Of a stretch of 37,693 nt of DNA, positions 1,778 through 9,543 are shown in pieces (positions within the stretch are counted from its first letter, which is position 1; the number at the start of each line of letters is the position of its first letter). Origin of the DNA: Granulosicoccus sp. (GTDB taxonomy: Bacteria; Pseudomonadota; Gammaproteobacteria; Granulosicoccales; Granulosicoccaceae); the NCBI GenBank assembly GCA_023300375.1, contig JALZWO010000108.1, positions 1 through 37,693 on the forward strand, given 5' to 3'. A program made the position numbers and the translations under genes. The notes under the pieces are model-generated. The model saw nothing but the letters and a program-made list of their open reading frames with translations, was not told the origin of the DNA and did no database searches.

Positions 1778-2233
1778 CTACTTGCTCAACGCTGCCGTTA
1801 GATCACCACCACCCCAAAGCACACTGTACTGTTCACAATGCACTAGAACGCTTTTGAAATCTGTTAGAGAAAGACCGTCTGGAAGGATGTAGTCCTGACC
1901 ACCAGAGGTGGATTGCAACTCTCCCAACTGTACTGAGCCATCGGTGGCTGTTTTTCCAGTGACCTTATCGATGGACAATGGCGACAGGAATACTTTCAGA
2001 TCAGGGCCACCCTTGGTTTTAAAACTCTTATCAAACCGGATCAATGTTTGGCCGTTTTCTTCGACGAGTTGCCAGCCACCCTTTACGTCATATTTTTTGC
2101 TGACAAATGTTTGGCCATCTGCCGCCGCCACAGGTGTATTAATGGTTTGTACTGCAACCGCTGACAGCACAATTGCCGCTACTAAGCCGCGTGCAAGGTT
2201 GGATTTTAAAAGTGTAGTAAGTTGCATTTTCAT
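1778..2233 (-). CDS. Exported DM13-domain protein, first paralogue
   Basis: This 151-residue protein has a basic N-terminus and hydrophobic core (about residues 14-30) ending in PVAAADG, a likely Sec signal peptide. The mature part is one DM13 domain: GGPDLKVFLSP near the middle, LGELQSTSGGQDYILPDG, and the C-terminal SVLVHCEQYSVLWG segment with the family's conserved cysteine, the only cysteine in the protein. DM13 domains are proposed to take part in redox or electron-transfer processes outside the cytoplasm; the partner is unknown. A GGAAG Shine-Dalgarno lies only 2 bases before the first ATG but about 8 bases before the third codon (also ATG, at 2227), which may be the true start. A second DM13 gene follows upstream after 186 bases, with its own terminator between them. 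Domain call is good; function is inference. Confidence 0.82.
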   Translation of the reverse strand: MKMQLTTLLKSNLARGLVAAIVLSAVAVQTINTPVAAADGQTFVSKKYDVKGGWQLVEENGQTLIRFDKSFKTKGGPDLKVFLSPLSIDKVTGKTATDGSVQLGELQSTSGGQDYILPDGLSLTDFKSVLVHCEQYSVLWGGGDLTAALSK

Positions 2234-2365: not shown

Positions 2366-2394
2366 ATGCAGAGCCAACAGTTTTGGCTCTGCAT
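2366..2394 (-). terminator. Hairpin terminator after the second DM13 gene
   Basis: A 12-bp perfect stem (ATGCAGAGCCAA / TTGGCTCTGCAT) with a 5-base loop lies about 25 bases past the stop at 2420. On the minus strand it is followed by a T/A-rich tract that is weaker than a classic U-run. It likely separates the two DM13 transcripts. Confidence 0.72.
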
Positions 2395-2419: not shown

Positions 2420-2797
2420 TTACAACTTTGCCGAACCCAGCGACACATTAAACTCCCCACACCAGATGAATATCTCGTCAAAATCACTCAATTTCACTGA
2501 TGCAGGCAAGACGTAAGTTTGTTCCCCTGTAATTGACTCTAAAGGTGCGATGTCTAGCTGAAATTCCCCATTTTTACCGATTGCTACAGAGGGCTGTGGA
2601 GCTCCATCGAGTGAGAAATCGTCACCCAGTACGATGTTCCAACCAGCGTCTGTTTTCACCACTTCTACTTGGCCGGTGGTTATATGGTCATTTGCACCAG
2701 AGAACGTACCCGATGCGGCAACATCGTGTGCTTGAAGGTGCAGTGATGCAACCAGTAGTGGGAGGGCAATCAGGAAGGAGAAATAGTTACTTTTCAT
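2420..2797 (-). CDS. Exported DM13-domain protein, second paralogue
   Basis: This 125-residue protein has a signal peptide (about residues 1-23, ending LHLQAHD) followed by a complete, compact DM13 domain. The visible order is GTFSG near the N-terminus, HITTGQVEV, LGDDFSLDGAPQPSV, LPASVKLSDFDEIFIWC and a C-terminal GSAKL. It keeps the single conserved cysteine. It fits the family better than the neighbouring paralogue at 1778-2233, which is more diverged. It is transcribed away from the TetR gene, so its upstream region is shared with the operator-like dyads at 2850-2885; control by that TetR protein is likely but inferred. No strong Shine-Dalgarno is visible before the ATG. A redox role in the periplasm is a family-level proposal only. 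Confidence 0.85.
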   Translation of the reverse strand: MKSNYFSFLIALPLLVASLHLQAHDVAASGTFSGANDHITTGQVEVVKTDAGWNIVLGDDFSLDGAPQPSVAIGKNGEFQLDIAPLESITGEQTYVLPASVKLSDFDEIFIWCGEFNVSLGSAKL

Positions 2798-2849
2798 AGC
2801 AGGCTCACGTGTGTTGTGACATAGAATTGTCGTAGTGGAATGTACTAAC

Positions 2850-2885
2850 TGATCCGTTCAAAACTGCATATTGACTGAACGGTCA
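2850..2885. promoter_or_regulatory. Operator-like dyads in the DM13/TetR intergenic region
   Basis: Two nested symmetries are visible. TTGACTGAACGGTCAA (2871-2886) is a 16-base imperfect palindrome with perfect 5-bp arms, the size and style of TetR-family operators. CCGTTCA (2854-2860) and TGAACGG (2876-2882) form a perfect 7-bp inverted repeat 15 bases apart, which extends to TGATCCGTTCA against TGAACGGTCA with one bulged base. A further half-like site, GACT-GATT-AGTC, is at 2906-2917. All lie between divergent genes and overlap the predicted TetR promoter, so autoregulation plus control of the DM13 gene is the simplest reading. Confidence 0.65.
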
Positions 2886-2898
2886 AAAACAAGATAAT
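2871..2898 (+). promoter_or_regulatory. Predicted sigma-70 promoter of the TetR gene
   Basis: The -35 TTGACT (2871-2876) and -10 GATAAT (2893-2898) are 16 bases apart, each one mismatch from consensus. Start of transcription would fall near 2905, about 87 bases before the chosen ATG. The -35 lies inside the 16-base operator-like palindrome, so bound repressor would block polymerase directly. Confidence 0.62.
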
Positions 2899-2991
2899 AG
2901 TATTGGACTGATTAGTCAACAACTATTTTCGTTGTTTACACTCCAACTGACTCCAGTCTGTACAAATTTGCAACACAAGCACCCAAACATC

Positions 2992-3594
2992 ATGGCTAGA
3001 CCGCGTAAATTTGATCGAGAAGACGTCCTTAACAGGATGAAGCTAGCGTTTTGGGAAAATGGTTTTAATGACATTTCCATGGACGACGTTGGACGTATCA
3101 CCAACATGAATAGAGGAAGTATTTACAACGCGTTCGGTGATAAACGCGCTTTGTATCTGGAGGTCTTGGAGGTCTATGGAGACCAGCACTACGGTGCTGC
3201 AGTTAAATTGATCCAGCATTCGCAGAACACGTCGAGTGCGGTACGTGATCTTTACGATGCGGCCTTTAAAAGTATGGAAGAGGGCCGGACGCATTGGGGA
3301 TGTTTTATGTGCAATGCGGCAGTCGAAGTTGCCCCAGTGGACACGGAGGTGGCCAACTTGGTGACAAAATATTTAACTACGCTGTCAACTGCATTCCTGA
3401 ACTCGTTAGAAGAGAGCGACCAGCTTACGAGCCAAAACGACAGCCCAGCTATGAAATACAGTAAAAATCCCCAAAACCTTGCTGAGCAGTTAACCGCAAG
3501 TTATGTTGGATTCAACATTATGGCAAGAACAGGAGTAGCAACAGCATCGTTACAACGAATCTCCGATTCTGCAGTTGAAAGTGTTACTAGCTAA
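2992..3594 (+). CDS. TetR/AcrR-family transcriptional regulator with CxxC in the ligand domain
   Basis: This 200-residue protein starts MARPRKFDRE, the standard beginning for this branch of TetR regulators, so I chose the ATG at 2992 over an in-frame ATG at 2932 that would add 20 atypical residues. The DNA-binding helix-turn-helix covers about residues 28-50 (DISMDDVGRITNMNRGSIYNAF). The ligand-binding domain follows, with the family signature THWGCFMCNAAVEVAP at about 100-115. Cys104 is the usual GC position; Cys107 makes a CxxC pair and is not what I expect there. Known TetR members such as NemR sense electrophiles or hypochlorous acid through a cysteine in this domain, so thiol sensing is plausible but inferred. 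It is divergent from the DM13 genes and probably represses them and itself. Confidence 0.93.
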   Translation: MARPRKFDREDVLNRMKLAFWENGFNDISMDDVGRITNMNRGSIYNAFGDKRALYLEVLEVYGDQHYGAAVKLIQHSQNTSSAVRDLYDAAFKSMEEGRTHWGCFMCNAAVEVAPVDTEVANLVTKYLTTLSTAFLNSLEESDQLTSQNDSPAMKYSKNPQNLAEQLTASYVGFNIMARTGVATASLQRISDSAVESVTS

Positions 3595-3673: not shown

Positions 3674-4606
3674 CTATCGACCGCGAATCCGCGGGTCTAA
3701 CGCGTCGCGAAGGCCGTCACCTAAATAGTTTACTCCCAGTACGGTGAGAGAAATTGCCAGCCCTGGCCACAATACTCTGGACGGGTATTGCTGCATATAG
3801 TCAGTAGCATCAAAAAGAATGCGGCCCCAAGTAGGGAAGTCGGGTGGAAAACCTAGCCCAAGAAATGACAGAGCAGATTCTGTAATGATGGCGTTAGCAA
3901 TGCCTAAGGTTGCAGACACCATAATCGGTGACATGACATTGGGAATAATGTGGCGTCGTATAAGTGCATTGTTTGAGGTGCCAATAGAACGCGCTGCCAG
4001 AATAAATTCACGCTCTTTTAGCGCCAACACATCGCCCCGAACAATTCGGGCCGTTGGCATCCAGGAGGTTAATCCAATAGCGGTAACAATCAATATGAAT
4101 ATGCCAGTTTCAGGACCAAATGCATTACTCAATGGCTGACGGAACAACATAACCATAACCAGTAATAACGGCAGCAGCGGTAGCGATAGGAATAGGTCGG
4201 TTAGGCGCATCAGAATGCTGTCGAGTCGCTGGTAGAAGCCTGCAAGCACGCCAATCAACGTTCCCAATAGCAACGCCAATAACATCGCGGCAAAGCCAAC
4301 AGCCAATGAAACGCGTCCGCCTGCAATCATGCGTGCCAACATATCTCGCCCTAGTTGATCTGTACCAAAAGGGTGTGCCAGCGTCATGCCTTGATTACGT
4401 GAGCGTATATCAATGAACGTGGCTTCTATCGTCCATATCCACGGACCTAGTAGTACGCCAATAGTGATAAAGATGAAAAAACCACCACCGAACAGCGCCC
4501 CTTTATGTGATTTGAACTGATCCCACACATCCCACCGCTGACTACGGGGTTTGTGGTCGAGAGCGCTCTCCGTATCGGCCAGACTGCTGGGTGCTTTATC
4601 AGTCAT
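3674..4606 (-). CDS. Oligopeptide/dipeptide-type ABC importer permease, DppC/OppC family
   Basis: This 310-residue inner-membrane permease has a cytoplasmic N-terminal tail of about 35 residues, a first membrane segment near 37-58, then a periplasmic loop and five more segments. HPFGTDQLGRDMLARMI and RVSLAVGFAA mark the DppC family, and the cytoplasmic ATPase-coupling (EAA) loop is near RHIIPNVMSPIM...ITESALSFLGLG. It pairs with the DppB-type permease immediately upstream, whose stop it overlaps by 8 bases, so the two are translationally coupled. The matching ATPase is not in this transcript but in the divergent gene at 7639. Substrate cannot be read from a permease. It is the last gene of its operon, converging with the TetR gene 79 bases away. 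Confidence 0.93.
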   Translation of the reverse strand: MTDKAPSSLADTESALDHKPRSQRWDVWDQFKSHKGALFGGGFFIFITIGVLLGPWIWTIEATFIDIRSRNQGMTLAHPFGTDQLGRDMLARMIAGGRVSLAVGFAAMLLALLLGTLIGVLAGFYQRLDSILMRLTDLFLSLPLLPLLLVMVMLFRQPLSNAFGPETGIFILIVTAIGLTSWMPTARIVRGDVLALKEREFILAARSIGTSNNALIRRHIIPNVMSPIMVSATLGIANAIITESALSFLGLGFPPDFPTWGRILFDATDYMQQYPSRVLWPGLAISLTVLGVNYLGDGLRDALDPRIRGR

Positions 4607-5606
4607 AACGAATCCTCGGGTCGAGAATACCGTAGAGCAGGTCGGCTACCAGATTAAAGAAGACAATGAGAATGGCAAATATGAACGTCAGGGTTTGTAC
4701 CATGGGTAGGTCATTTGCCTGAATAGCGGTAATAAGCAATTGGCCGATACCGTTTACTTTAAACACTTGCTCTGTAATAATTGCGCCTCCAAAAATGGCA
4801 GGTACACCCAGCGCAATAACGGTCACAACGGGGATTAATGAATTGCGTAATACATGGCTGAGCACCACCACTGTCTCACTAAGACCCTTTGCACGTACTG
4901 TGCGAACGTAGTCTTGATTGAGGTTATCGAGCATGGATGCCCGCATGAAGCGACTGATTTGTGCAGTGGTCTGTAGTGCAAGCACCATGACGGGCATGAT
5001 CATTTGCTTTAGTTGCACTACAAAGCTGTCCCAGTCGGTGACTTGATGCGTGGTGTCGTAGATGGATGGAAACCACCCAAGGAATATTGAGAAAACAACG
5101 ATAACCAGCACACCAGAGAAAAACGGAGGAATCGAAAACCCCACCATAGTGACAAATGTACCGACTTGATCAAAAACTGAGTACTGACGGTAGGCTGAGT
5201 AAATACCAATTGGAATGGCTATGAGGATGCCAACAATGTATGACATCCCAACAACCCAAAGTGTTTGTGGCATGCGCTGAACCACAATATCCATGACCGG
5301 GGAGCGAGTCTGCCAAGAGATGACACGCTGCTTTTCAGCGGCGAAGCTAGTGTTAAATAGCCAGTCTATAAAGTTGAGTGGCTCTACCCAAAAAAACTGC
5401 ACTAACCATTTCCAGAATCGGATGTAGGCCGGCTCGCCTAAGCCAAGAGCCAAACGCATTTTCTCTTTTACTTCGGGTGGAACAGTCAGTGGCACTTGCG
5501 CCATTGGATCGCCTGGCGCAAGTTCAAGTAACAAAAATATTGTCAGGGCGATGAACAACAATGTCGGGATGGACGTTAAGAGTCTCCGCAGGGTGTAGGT
5601 TAGCAT
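4599..5606 (-). CDS. Oligopeptide/dipeptide-type ABC importer permease, DppB/OppB family
   Basis: This 335-residue inner-membrane permease opens with the DppB hallmark (LTYTLRRLLTSIPTLLFIALTIFLL, then LAPGDPM). A large periplasmic loop follows (about residues 35-115), then five further membrane segments and an EAA coupling loop near LSHVLRNSLIPVVT...FGGAIITEQVF. It would form the channel heterodimer with the DppC-type partner encoded next. No Shine-Dalgarno is visible before the ATG; instead a strong hairpin occupies 5622-5658 between it and the binding-protein gene, which may set permease expression below that of the binding protein. Family is secure, substrate unknown. Confidence 0.93.
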   Translation of the reverse strand: MLTYTLRRLLTSIPTLLFIALTIFLLLELAPGDPMAQVPLTVPPEVKEKMRLALGLGEPAYIRFWKWLVQFFWVEPLNFIDWLFNTSFAAEKQRVISWQTRSPVMDIVVQRMPQTLWVVGMSYIVGILIAIPIGIYSAYRQYSVFDQVGTFVTMVGFSIPPFFSGVLVIVVFSIFLGWFPSIYDTTHQVTDWDSFVVQLKQMIMPVMVLALQTTAQISRFMRASMLDNLNQDYVRTVRAKGLSETVVVLSHVLRNSLIPVVTVIALGVPAIFGGAIITEQVFKVNGIGQLLITAIQANDLPMVQTLTFIFAILIVFFNLVADLLYGILDPRIRYD

Positions 5607-5621
5607 TGAATTTTTATTGTC

Positions 5622-5658
5622 TGCAAAAGCTGACTCGGGTGTCGGGTCAGCTTTTGCA
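5622..5658 (-). terminator. Strong intercistronic hairpin between binding-protein and permease genes
   Basis: A 13-bp perfect stem (TGCAAAAGCTGAC / GTCAGCTTTTGCA) encloses an 11-base loop, 16 bases upstream of the permease ATG. No proper U-tract follows on the minus strand, so it is more likely a partial terminator or an RNA-stabilising and processing element than a full stop. Such elements between binding-protein and permease genes are known to raise the binding protein relative to the membrane subunits (malE-malF is the classic case). Confidence 0.7.
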
Positions 5659-5682
5659 TTATTGGCCTAGTGAATTATCGAA

Positions 5683-7380
5683 TTATTTTATTCGATACCA
5701 GTCAGCGGCATTCCATAGTTCACTGTCCCAGGTGCTAAGTATAACGCCACCCAGTGTGTTGGATTTACCCGATACTCGACCACGGTGTACTAACGGTATT
5801 AGAGCCCCATTGGAGACGATCATATCGTTCAATTCTTTGGAAATTTGATGCCTCTCGCTAGCCTCTGCGGTACGCTCTAGCTGTTTATAAAGTGTGTCGA
5901 AGTCATCACTACAAAAACGCGATATGTTTTCCCCTTGCCATTGTGTATCGGGTCTGGGCGCTTTGTCACACGTGTATTGGCCAAGGTAGCTTTGTGGGTC
6001 GGTACCATCGAATTCGTTAGCGTACATCTCTACATCTGCATAGAATTTCTGGAAAGTATCAGGTGAGCCTGGGTCACCACCAAAAAAGACAGAACCTGAG
6101 ATGTTTCGAAGCTCAGACTCAACACCGATTTCCGACCACCATTGTTTGATCAATGCTTGAAAGTCTTGGCGAACAGCGTTAGTCGAGCTCTGATATAAAT
6201 AGCTTAGTCGAACGCCGTCTTTGACACGAACACCATCAGCCCCCATTGCCCAACCGGCATCGTCGAGAAGCTTATTAGCGGCATCCATATCTTGCTTGTC
6301 GCAAGTAAACGAGGTTGATGCGTAGGCCTCTGGGGCCGGAACCAAATTACAGGTCACCTTACCTGCCTGACCGTAACCAATTTCAACGAGTAGAGGTCGA
6401 TCGATTGCCAAGCTCAATGCTTGATAAACGGCTGGGTCGCTCAGTGAAGGGTGTGGTCCAATCACAGAGCGTTCGTCGGCGCTAAGGCTTGGGTCTGGGT
6501 TAGTTTGATTTAGCATGATGCGCTCAACAAGCGTTCCAAAAGCTGCTATGGATGTGCCCTTGCCACCTTTTTCCATGTTGGCGATAACGTCTGGAGCCAG
6601 TTGTAAGTTCCAAGCGTAGTCGAATTCGCCAGTTTCCATTACCGCGCGACCAGCGGCTGCAGCATCGCCGCCACCTTTGAAATTAACTTTAGCAAAGGCC
6701 GGTTTACCGTCTTCACGGAAATTATCATTGGCAACCAAGGTGATGACATCGTTGGGTCGAAATTCTTCCACGACGAAAGGTCCGGTGCCGATAGGGCCAA
6801 AGTTTTCGGTTGTGCACTCTGGTGCTTTTGGCCCTAGGCATTCTTGAAATTGCGCTTTTTGGATCAGCGGGCTTTGCAAACCAACCAAAGGTCCGTAAGG
6901 GAAAGGTGTAGCGGCTTCAAAATTGATTTTTACGGTTCGTTCATCAACAGCTTCAACAGTGGAGACACCACCAAAGTTTTTGAGCTGGGCGCAACCGCCC
7001 TCAGGATTCATGCAGTATTGAGCTGTGAATACAGCATCTTCAGAAGTGACTGGAGTGCCATCAGACCACAATAGACCCTCTTTGATCACCCACGTGATTG
7101 ACGTCAAATCTTCAGCAACACCACCATTCTCAACCGTTGGTATTGATTCTGCCAGCCAGGGGGTGAGTTCACCATTTTCGTTATATCGAGCAAGCGGTTC
7201 AAGTATCAATGACGCCGCCTGAGTGTCTTTCGTGCCGCCAGACAGATAAGGATTAAGTATTGAAGGCGCTTGCCAGTAGATGATATTAACTTGGCCATCT
7301 CTACCGCGCTCTTCTTGAGCAAAAGCATGGCTGGTGGCGCAAAGGCCAATTGCCACACAAACTAAAGACGCTAATTTCAT
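5683..7380 (-). CDS. Periplasmic peptide-type ABC substrate-binding protein, SBP family 5
   Basis: This 565-residue protein starts with a Sec signal peptide (MKLASLVCVAIGLCATSHAFA-QEE). The mature part is a family 5 (DppA/OppA-like) binding protein: IIYWQAPSILNPYLSGG near the start, LLWSDGTPVTSEDAVF, GTGPFVVEEFRPND, and the VYQALSLAIDRPLLVEIGYG region. The mature protein has eight cysteines lying in four close pairs (CMNPEGGC, CLGPKAPEC, CNLV...FTC, YTC...RFC), suggesting four local disulfides. A good Shine-Dalgarno (GGAG, 9 bases upstream) and a candidate promoter at 7401-7429 precede it. As first gene of the transcript it feeds both permeases that follow. Ligands of this family include di- and oligopeptides, glutathione, opines and nickel chelates; the M20D hydrolase on the divergent arm favours a peptide-like or N-acyl amino acid ligand. 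Confidence 0.93.
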   Translation of the reverse strand: MKLASLVCVAIGLCATSHAFAQEERGRDGQVNIIYWQAPSILNPYLSGGTKDTQAASLILEPLARYNENGELTPWLAESIPTVENGGVAEDLTSITWVIKEGLLWSDGTPVTSEDAVFTAQYCMNPEGGCAQLKNFGGVSTVEAVDERTVKINFEAATPFPYGPLVGLQSPLIQKAQFQECLGPKAPECTTENFGPIGTGPFVVEEFRPNDVITLVANDNFREDGKPAFAKVNFKGGGDAAAAGRAVMETGEFDYAWNLQLAPDVIANMEKGGKGTSIAAFGTLVERIMLNQTNPDPSLSADERSVIGPHPSLSDPAVYQALSLAIDRPLLVEIGYGQAGKVTCNLVPAPEAYASTSFTCDKQDMDAANKLLDDAGWAMGADGVRVKDGVRLSYLYQSSTNAVRQDFQALIKQWWSEIGVESELRNISGSVFFGGDPGSPDTFQKFYADVEMYANEFDGTDPQSYLGQYTCDKAPRPDTQWQGENISRFCSDDFDTLYKQLERTAEASERHQISKELNDMIVSNGALIPLVHRGRVSGKSNTLGGVILSTWDSELWNAADWYRIK

Positions 7381-7400
7381 ACTATTTTACTCCGTCGTTG

Positions 7401-7429
7401 TTTATGAATTTAATGCGCCAGTAGGTCAA
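7401..7429 (-). promoter_or_regulatory. Predicted promoter of the binding-protein/permease operon
   Basis: Read on minus, TTGACC (7424-7429) and CATAAA (7401-7406) are 17 bases apart, 20 bases from the start codon. The -10 is weak (4 of 6), so an activator may be needed, or the real promoter lies further upstream in this 258-base divergent region. Confidence 0.4.
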
Positions 7430-7576
7430 GTGATTAAAGGCGCGTGTGACTCCCAACAAAGATTGACACCAATTATCTCACTCGTCAAACTAGGTTTACA
7501 GTCGGCCCGTTTGGAACTTGTCTTAATTCGCTTAAAACAGCCACGTTTTTGTACTGCTTTTGATTTGTGATTTTTC

Positions 7577-7606
7577 TTGCCAGTGTTGATGTATTCGACT
7601 TATAGT
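7577..7606 (+). promoter_or_regulatory. Predicted promoter of the ATPase/amidohydrolase operon
   Basis: TTGCCA (7577-7582) and TATAGT (7601-7606) are separated by 18 bases, 33 bases before the TTG start. With the candidate at 7401-7429 this makes a divergent arrangement in which one regulator could control the entire importer. Confidence 0.5.
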
Positions 7607-7638
7607 GGTGGAATGCGTGGCTAATTATTTGACATACT

Positions 7639-9543
7639 TTGAATACGCCGGTAATTGACGAACCGCTTGCGAAAATACAGAACCTGCGTGTTGAGTTTCA
7701 AACACGAGGGGGCAGTGTGGTCGGCGTAAAAGATATCAGCTTTGATATCCAACCGCGTCAAACGGTTGCCGTGGTTGGCGAAAGTGGGTCTGGCAAATCG
7801 GTATCTGCTCTCAGCCTTATGCGTCTTATCGAGTACGGCGGAGGGCAAATAGCCAACGGTGCTCTGTTATTTGATCGGCGTGACGGAAATGGCCCAATCG
7901 ATCTTGCGAACGCCACACAGCAAACCGTTCGATCGTTGCGTGGTAATGAAATCGGTATGATTTTTCAAGAACCAATGACCTCTCTCAATCCGGTGTTCAC
8001 CATTGGCAAGCAATTGACGGAAGGCATGCGGCTGCATCTTGGACTGAGTCGATCGGCTGCGAAAAGTAAGGCTATTGAATTACTCAGACAAGTGCGCATT
8101 CCAGAGCCTGAGCGACGCCTAAAGCAGTATCCACACGAGTTGTCAGGCGGTATGCGGCAGCGTGTTGTCATCGCTATGGCGTTAGCGTGTGAGCCACGGT
8201 TACTGATCGCAGATGAGCCCACAACTGCGTTGGATGTGACCATTCAAGCTGAAATTCTTTCACTAATGAATCGGCTTAAACTTGAGCACAACACTGCATT
8301 ATTGTTTATCACTCATGACATGGCCGTGGTTGCACAGATGGCCGATCGTGTAGTTGTTATGTTTCGTGGTGAAAAGGTAGAGGAAGGAACTGTGGAAGAG
8401 ATTTTTGAAAATCCACAACATGCCTACACGAAGTCTTTACTGGCAGCGGTCCCCAAGTTAGGTGAGATGCGAGGTAAGGCTGCGCCCGAACCATTGCAAC
8501 TTATTGGCGATACCACGCAAGCTCGTAAACCGATCGAGATTACCAACCAATCAGTGGTGCTTGATGTCAGCCATTTAGTCACGCGTTTTGCAGTCAAAGG
8601 CGGATTGCTACGCAATGTGGTTGCACGTGTGCATGCGGTAGAAGATGTGTCATTCCGTATTCGTGCGGGAGAAACGTTAAGTCTGGTCGGCGAATCAGGT
8701 TGCGGTAAGTCAACGTGCGGTCGTTCTATCCTAAGGCTGCTTGATCCGCTCGAGCAACAAGGTCAGATTTTTCTTGAAGGTCGTGATGTGATGGCGTTTG
8801 ACGATAACGAGTTGCGCGCCGCGCGTCGTGATATGCAGATGATCTTTCAGGATCCTTTTGCCTCGCTTAATCCTCAGATGCAGCTATTTGAACAAGTTGC
8901 GGAGCCGTTACGCAATTTTAAAATTGCCTCCAAGTCTGACTTGCGCGATCAGGTGGCGTCCTTGTTCGAACGCGTTGAACTGCCAGTCTCATTTATGCAA
9001 CGGTATCCGCATGAACTCTCCGGTGGCCAAAGACAACGAGTAGCGATTGCACGCGCCTTAGCCTTAAAGCCTAAGCTTATTATTGCTGATGAAGCGGTGA
9101 GTGCACTCGATGTTAGTGTGCAAGCGCAGGTGCTGAATTTGCTCATGGAATTGCAGAGCGATCTGGGAATTTCCATGCTGTTTATCAGTCATGACATGGC
9201 GGTTGTGGAGCGGGTTAGTCACCTAGTCGGTATTATGTATTTGGGGCGTATTGTAGAGATTGGCTCAAGGGCACAGGTGTTCGAAAACCCTCAACACCCC
9301 TACACACTTGCCCTGATGGAAGCGGTACCGATCGCCGACCCCAGACGACGCAAACTCGACAAGCAAATGAACTTTAAGCCGATTCCATCGCCGATACACT
9401 CGGTTAGCTATCAAGCCGAACCCTCCGTCTACAATGAAGTAGAAGCTGGGCACTTTGTATTGCAAGGTGTTTGGGATGGCGAAAGCTCGATGGGCACGGG
9501 CTTGGCCAGTGGCAGTTCGGTTGGCAATGCAGCACTGGCATAG
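7639..9543 (+). CDS. Fused dipeptide/oligopeptide ABC importer ATPase (DppD-DppF type double ATPase)
   Basis: This 634-residue protein joins two complete ATPase domains of the peptide/nickel importer class, as in GsiA or YejF. Domain 1 has Walker A GESGSGKS (47-54), signature LSGGMRQR (about 167) and Walker B LLIADEP (about 188). Domain 2 has Walker A GESGCGKS (351-358), signature LSGGQRQR (460-467) and LIIADEA. Each is followed by the oligopeptide-ATPase C-terminal extension (NPQHAYTKSLLAAVP; NPQHPYTLALMEAVP). It would power the permeases encoded divergently at 3674-5606. The start is a TTG: an in-frame stop lies at 7630-7632 and no ATG or good GTG precedes the first domain. No clear Shine-Dalgarno is visible, so expression may be low. 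The M20D hydrolase follows after 30 bases. Confidence 0.93.
   Translation: MNTPVIDEPLAKIQNLRVEFQTRGGSVVGVKDISFDIQPRQTVAVVGESGSGKSVSALSLMRLIEYGGGQIANGALLFDRRDGNGPIDLANATQQTVRSLRGNEIGMIFQEPMTSLNPVFTIGKQLTEGMRLHLGLSRSAAKSKAIELLRQVRIPEPERRLKQYPHELSGGMRQRVVIAMALACEPRLLIADEPTTALDVTIQAEILSLMNRLKLEHNTALLFITHDMAVVAQMADRVVVMFRGEKVEEGTVEEIFENPQHAYTKSLLAAVPKLGEMRGKAAPEPLQLIGDTTQARKPIEITNQSVVLDVSHLVTRFAVKGGLLRNVVARVHAVEDVSFRIRAGETLSLVGESGCGKSTCGRSILRLLDPLEQQGQIFLEGRDVMAFDDNELRAARRDMQMIFQDPFASLNPQMQLFEQVAEPLRNFKIASKSDLRDQVASLFERVELPVSFMQRYPHELSGGQRQRVAIARALALKPKLIIADEAVSALDVSVQAQVLNLLMELQSDLGISMLFISHDMAVVERVSHLVGIMYLGRIVEIGSRAQVFENPQHPYTLALMEAVPIADPRRRKLDKQMNFKPIPSPIHSVSYQAEPSVYNEVEAGHFVLQGVWDGESSMGTGLASGSSVGNAALA

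Follow-up and report, generated by a model that had tools for sequence, protein, structure and literature searches.

In Granulosicoccus sp., a TetR-type regulator with a CxxC pair in its ligand domain is encoded divergently from a gene for a predicted exported DM13 protein, and comparison with related loci suggests that the two form a thiol-switch repressor unit in which the TetR protein governs one oxidant-defence gene, often that for DM13, a reading to which we assign a probability of about 0.55. The genome is a 4.58-Mb draft (G000), and the window, i.e., the whole stretch of 37,693 nucleotides that was analysed, is its contig C108; its nearest named relative is a Granulosicoccus MAG (metagenome-assembled genome).

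Gene Arrangement and Properties of the DM13 Proteins

The regulator (positions 2992–3594, plus strand) comprises 200 amino acids from the ATG at 2992 and has a CifR/NemR-like ligand domain of the TetR_C_13 type. Its start codon lies 194 bp from that of its divergent partner DM13-1 (2420–2797, minus strand; 125 amino acids, Cys113), and DM13-2, a further predicted exported DM13 protein of 151 amino acids (1778–2233, minus strand) whose membership of the unit is uncertain, follows DM13-1 186 bp on. The initial annotation had described a TetR protein with Cys104 and Cys107 that faces exported DM13 proteins, each with the family cysteine, and profile matches as well as the exact cysteine positions agree with this description; the positions that it gave (2420–3594) cover DM13-1 and the regulator but leave DM13-2 outside. 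Assignment to the TetR family is founded on a match to TetR_N (PF00440) above the cut-off (E 3e-8). The match to TetR_C_13 (PF16925; E 6.9e-5) stays below it with 23.6 bits versus a cut-off of 27, and by this profile score the protein is classed as a near relative of that family and not counted as a member. Its best NCBIfam match, far under the cut-off, is AcuR. Besides DM13, the neighbourhood of the regulator holds a peptide ABC transporter and neither nemA nor gloA; the oligopeptide-type transporter genes (3674–9543) adjoin the unit and are apparently unrelated to it.

Both DM13 proteins score above the Pfam cut-off (PF10517) and start with a signal-like stretch, and the family cysteine is invariant in all 42 distinct DM13 sequences compared. 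The genome contains a third DM13 gene on another contig (C130:14737–15039, L001), and the Pfam match of its product is stronger than those of DM13-1 and DM13-2. To our knowledge, the function of DM13 in bacteria is largely undescribed; Pfam names the domain 'electron transfer', and literature titles and the first lines of abstracts, many of which employ the term DM13 with a different meaning, contained nothing that links DM13 to TetR or to an oxidant in bacteria. Among solved structures, a sequence search yielded no DM13 relative (best E 0.55). A model of DM13-1 built from seven input sequences is all beta (pLDDT 82.7), and the 50 rows listed for it by VIA-align were all Cu,Zn-superoxide dismutases (SOD), SOD-like proteins or SOD copper chaperones (Z 8.2–9.3 over about 96 residues at about 2.5–3.5 Å; best Z 9.3 at 2.7 Å); Foldseek alone gave a best E of 0.1, which is not significant. 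Tentatively, then, the modelled DM13 fold resembles that of Cu,Zn-SOD. The metal site of the latter consists of six histidines and an aspartate; past the signal-like stretch, DM13-1 contains only His24 and His38, and the SOD metal ligands are absent.

Conservation of the TetR–DM13 Pair

Relatives were gathered by a one-genome-per-species scan (best 80 of 174 confirmed stretches) and by searches of 143, 369, 398, 248 and 289 genomes, samples that overlap and of which only the best matches became loci; 193 distinct TetR proteins were left after duplicates and fragments of less than 120 amino acids had been dropped. Among the 143 relatives searched, an orthologue of the window TetR (72–73% identity) occurs in G023 and G026, in both cases divergent from a DM13-1 orthologue (70–76%), so that the pair is found in all three Granulosicoccus genomes that have the regulator. 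In neither of the two does DM13-2 adjoin the pair; its orthologue sits elsewhere in the genome of G023, and G026 was outside the sample searched for it. A TetR paralogue in G026 (61–62%, L030/L054) keeps the operator described below and is not accompanied by DM13, and nine more Granulosicoccus genomes carry a DM13-1-like gene (40–50%) without this TetR. In six of nine such TetR-less Granulosicoccus loci (L056, L057, L059, L061, L062, L063), DM13 is followed by a gene for a hydrophobic protein of about 175–220 amino acids; the only one of these proteins that was scanned (L057:978–1499) has no Pfam match.

Among the matches listed, 16 of the 193 distinct TetR loci have a divergent DM13 gene, and all 16 regulators contain the CxxC motif (16/42 CxxC versus 0/151 non-CxxC proteins). 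The pairs stem from Granulosicoccus and from Alphaproteobacteria, the latter at about 30% TetR identity; those at 27–32% include Loktanella salsilacus (L083) and metagenome-assembled genomes (MAGs) of Rhodobacteraceae (L115), Hellea (L066) and Caulobacterales (L073). The partners in L066 and L073 are of the DM13-2 type, so that each of the two DM13 types in the window is found facing a regulator of this kind. A plasmid search with the Loktanella TetR returned 17 records, all below 60% identity. A conserved TetR–DM13 neighbourhood, which had been named beforehand as a check of the initial reading, thus exists at no fewer than 16 loci in Gamma- and Alphaproteobacteria.

In the reverse direction, DM13 was found in 31 of 240 alphaproteobacterial genomes (42 matches), and among 30 DM13 loci examined a CxxC-TetR is present at just one, L278, which coincides with L171; a second case (G449:C2) came from outside these 30. 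DM13 in general is no predictor of a TetR neighbour. Most DM13 proteins retrieved in this search look like another, membrane-anchored subtype. Widespread in Alphaproteobacteria is a subtype that apparently has a membrane anchor at its N-terminus and whose genes have no TetR gene beside them (L250–L277).

A FastTree phylogeny of 192 rows, calculated with the motif columns left out, places the 16 DM13-paired regulators within one clade of 35 rows with a local (SH-like) support of 97. This clade reaches down to 24–32% identity to the window TetR, and the CxxC motif is present in 35 of 35 members, hence also in all 16 paired regulators, which answers the initial annotation's call for an alignment of both cysteines. 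Seven CxxC-TetRs fall outside the clade, none of them with DM13 beside it, and DM13 presence changes six times on the tree. Because all 16 pairs fall into a single all-CxxC clade, CxxC and DM13 are linked by descent, and the tree indicates that their association is a lineage trait and not 16 independent events; the contrast with the 151 other proteins is therefore not independent evidence for each locus, and Fisher's test (16/42 versus 0/151, p about 2e-12) gives a value inflated by shared descent. For a phylogenetic test on independent pairs, the pairs were too few to decide.

Partner Genes of Other Clade Members

Elsewhere in the clade, the place facing or adjoining the regulator is taken by genes for cytochrome P460 (L067, L173), a CMD/AhpD-like protein (L103, L170, L205), a YHS protein (L192, L207, L228; in L209 and L210 the gene precedes that of the regulator in the same orientation), a Prx5-like peroxiredoxin (L226, L229; same strand), a fusion of glutaredoxin and thioredoxin reductase (L225) or a DUF417/RclC-like protein (L208). 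These families were assigned by Pfam or NCBIfam on at least one representative each, and for L207, L210 and L229 by likeness or a local profile only. Seeded redox families lie within 600 nt of 29/35 clade members, 1/7 other CxxC-TetRs and 21/151 non-CxxC proteins, the seeds having been chosen after the clade had been seen; p is about 6e-15 for 29/35 versus 21/151 (Fisher), a figure inflated both by this choice and by shared descent. Non-CxxC TetRs with peroxiredoxin-like and CMD neighbours exist too, so the wider group likewise has redox neighbours; in five cases (L007, L008, L009, L177, L179) a gene for a peroxiredoxin-like protein lies directly downstream of that for a non-CxxC TetR with a single cysteine. 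Within 600 nt of six clade members (L030, L145, L146, L206, L225, L227) no seeded redox family was found; in L225 the partner is the glutaredoxin fusion named above, and the regulator of L227 faces an enoyl-ACP-reductase-type protein. A small membrane protein with an SPW repeat is encoded beside DM13 in L115 (5063–5425) and faces a CxxC-TetR without DM13 in L206 (2183–2542), as if it belonged to the same regulon as DM13.

Candidate Operators and Promoters

Two palindromes in the intergenic region, 33 bp apart, are candidate operators: O1 (TTGACTGAACGGTCAA, 2871–2886), which holds the predicted −35 box of tetR, and O2 (TGGACTGATTAGTCAA, 2904–2919), which holds that of DM13-1; in the window, each box is formed by a half-site of its palindrome. 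Both have kept their positions in G023 and G026. The TetR–DM13 region holds the only copy of the pattern TTGACYGNNYRGTCAA in G000; G023 has, besides the one at its pair, a single copy elsewhere, and in G026 the paralogue of the regulator carries the pattern as well as the pair. By consensus match, a tetR promoter is predicted at 2871–2898 (plus strand; TTGACT-16-GATAAT, 10/12) and a DM13-1 promoter at 2891–2919 (minus strand; TTGACT-17-TATCTT, 9/12). Since the promoter scan gave no excess over shuffled sequence (three sites versus a shuffle mean of 3.0), these predictions rest on conserved placement: the geometry of the DM13-1 promoter (TTGACT, 17 bp) and the position of its −35 box inside O2 are kept in all three orthologous regions, that of the tetR promoter in two, as it was not found in G026 at the same thresholds.

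Palindrome scans covered the upstream regions of 30 of the 35 clade members (all save L145, L146, L209, L210 and L227), with approximate distances for L208 and L225, whose start codons are tentative. A strict scan, run earlier, detected palindromes in 13/30 regions (12.6% of shuffles) and pairs in three. With a looser core pattern, which was shaped after inspection of the regions, the core appeared upstream of 17 members (6.0% of shuffles) and was absent from 13 of the 30, and spaced pairs were seen in 7/30 regions versus 0.03% of shuffles, among them loci with YHS, RclC-like, SPW and glutaredoxin partners.

No operator-like site was found upstream of DM13-2. In addition, a 12-bp perfect stem lies 3′ of DM13-1 (2366–2394, minus strand; MFE z −4.3 for a 71-nt stretch), which the terminator scan did not call as a T-tailed terminator and which is a probable transcript end or attenuator ahead of DM13-2. 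DM13-2 is thus probably outside the reach of the operator in the window. The initial annotation had both DM13 proteins released by the regulator; this fits DM13-1, which has the candidate operator, and is doubtful for DM13-2, placed behind the hairpin, devoid of an operator and located elsewhere in G023, although its type is the divergent partner in L066 and L073. Just upstream of DM13-1, a further block, GTGACATA(G/T)AATTGTCG (2817–2832), is near-identical in all three orthologous regions; it is palindromic (GACA-N6-TGTC) and could be the site of a second regulator.

The CxxC Motif and Known Thiol and Ligand Regulators

Cys104 and Cys107 (codons 3301–3303 and 3310–3312 on the plus strand; motif 3301–3312) are the only cysteines of the window TetR. 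An AlphaFold2 model of the protein has nine helices (pLDDT 92) and matches TetR folds; helix 104–113 (alpha6) begins at Cys104, and Cys107 follows one turn on, a placement that is known from the model of this one clade member. The geometry resembles that of the CxxC motif of thioredoxin. With Cys104 at the helix start and Cys107 one turn further, the model would favour a low pKa for Cys104 and a resolving function for Cys107. An equivalent of Cys104 is present in 193/193 distinct TetR relatives among the matches listed (112/113 in an earlier set), of which 42 also have an equivalent of Cys107. Owing to this universality, the role of Cys104 may be structural or lie in the binding of a ligand or electrophile.

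By sequence, the best relative among solved structures is CifR from Pseudomonas aeruginosa (profile E 1e-47), which is also among the best by structure. Its aligned cysteine is C107 (chain 6nsm is the C107S form), and it has valine instead of cysteine at position +3. CifR responds to epoxides, its partner Cif is an epoxide hydrolase, and AcuR responds to acrylate; on a cysteine mechanism of CifR, literature titles and the first lines of abstracts contained nothing. NemR ranked second among all chains in a Foldseek search with the window TetR model (E 8e-6, TM 0.77). This TetR repressor from Escherichia coli is inactivated by HOCl via Cys106 of its ligand domain (PMC7464077). Cys106 aligns with Cys104 of the window TetR at 18% overall identity. 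Unlike the window TetR, NemR carries valine at +3, and its targets are nemA-gloA instead of DM13. Moreover, Lys175, the sulfenamide partner in NemR, is replaced by Arg179, so that the sulfenamide chemistry would be unavailable as such in the window TetR.

RcrR from uropathogenic E. coli is a TetR repressor that leaves the DNA on exposure to HOCl through reversible, intermolecular disulfides that link it into oligomers, has cysteines 54, 88, 95 and 153, of which Cys54 and Cys95 are essential, and controls a DUF417/RclC-like protein (PMC9600549). Judged by this published description and not by sequence, RcrR lacks a CxxC motif, whereas the window TetR has Cys104 and Cys107 only; a likeness is seen in clade member L208, which is divergent from a DUF417 gene. 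A link to RclR, the AraC-type HOCl regulator, is offered by other Granulosicoccus genomes: of the nine DM13 loci without the TetR, L058 and L061 have DM13 adjoining an AraC/Cupin_6 regulator with RclR as its best NCBIfam match, and in L060 a regulator of this type and, beside it, a DUF417/RclC-like gene are found about 3–4 kb from DM13, the regulator at about 3 kb; all these RclR and RclC matches are far under the equivalog cut-offs and come from outside the window. Together, the RcrR–DUF417 connection and the RclR-like regulators near DM13 suggest, by analogy, hypohalous oxidants as the first candidate stimulus. The best reading of these comparisons is that the unit would be akin to NemR and RcrR, with the addition of a CxxC motif. 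The initial statement that no such system is known needs qualifying, since thiol-based regulation by HOCl has been described for NemR, RcrR and RclR.

Proposed Mechanism and Alternative Explanations

Conserved operators, promoters and synteny lead us to propose that the reduced TetR dimer would occupy O1 and O2 and repress both tetR and DM13-1. Cys104 at the N-terminus of alpha6 would be attacked by a thiol oxidant, for which the hypohalous or reactive chlorine type is the likeliest candidate, Cys107 would then resolve it to an intra-subunit or a mixed disulfide, and the ensuing helix shift would release the DNA and allow the exported DM13-1 to be made; position and conservation of the cysteines are consistent with these steps. 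As the weakest step, DM13, once in the periplasm, might function in oxidant defence or electron transfer. Other clade members, to go by their neighbours, may use the same switch on other redox genes. More ambitiously, and at clearly less than even odds, the thioredoxin-like CxxC at a helix N-terminus of the TetR ligand domain might define a family of disulfide switches, each with one oxidant-defence gene (DM13, cytochrome P460, AhpD-like peroxidase, YHS, RclC-like protein, glutaredoxin-thioredoxin reductase), of which DM13, with a SOD fold devoid of the SOD metal ligands, would be the commonest target and would protect the periplasm from hypohalous or comparable thiol oxidants. The mechanism put forward initially, an oxidant sensed by the regulator and DM13 released to act in the periplasm, is better grounded now; it is plausible and unproven.

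Were the regulator instead to sense a ligand or an electrophile in the classical manner of CifR or AcuR, a small organic molecule would bind non-covalently or alkylate Cys104, DM13 would handle or respond to the compound, and no disulfide would be formed. Such a sensor would agree with CifR and its C107 as the closest solved relative, with AcuR as the best, though distant, NCBIfam match and with the occurrence of Cys104 throughout a wider group that mostly lacks Cys107; we nevertheless consider it rather unlikely, as it leaves unexplained why the second cysteine is kept in every clade member and why the partners of the clade are mostly thiol, peroxide or heme redox proteins. CxxC is also a common metal-binding motif, and the cysteines could bind a metal (Zn, Cu or Fe) inside one subunit or across two and so make the unit metal-responsive, with DM13, YHS and P460 as periplasmic metal or heme proteins. 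P460 is indeed heme-bearing by family and the DM13 model resembles the Cu,Zn-SOD barrel, but a metal site would have only two cysteines, at a helix start, and the columns listed as fully or almost fully conserved in 18 aligned CxxC-TetRs include no histidine or extra cysteine, and we regard it as improbable. Finally, the regulator might control itself alone, with DM13 as a neighbour by descent. Autoregulation from divergent promoters is common among TetRs, and the paralogue in G026 has its operator and no DM13; against this, several sub-branches whose TetRs share about 30% identity have DM13 in the divergent position amid different flanking genes, and the predicted −35 box of DM13-1 lies within O2 in three of three regions, and we attach very little probability to such hitchhiking.

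Implications

If the reading of a thiol-switch repressor paired with an oxidant-defence gene holds, DM13 would have a conserved regulator that is probably switched by an oxidant, and this would suggest a stimulus and a regulon for it as well as a phenotype to look for first. DM13 would thereby acquire a testable role in oxidant defence of the envelope, for which culturable marine carriers such as Loktanella salsilacus are available. NemR and RcrR, which belong to the few thiol switches described in the TetR family, would be joined by a CxxC variant, and the genes that neighbour the regulators of its clade may reveal more oxidant-defence proteins.
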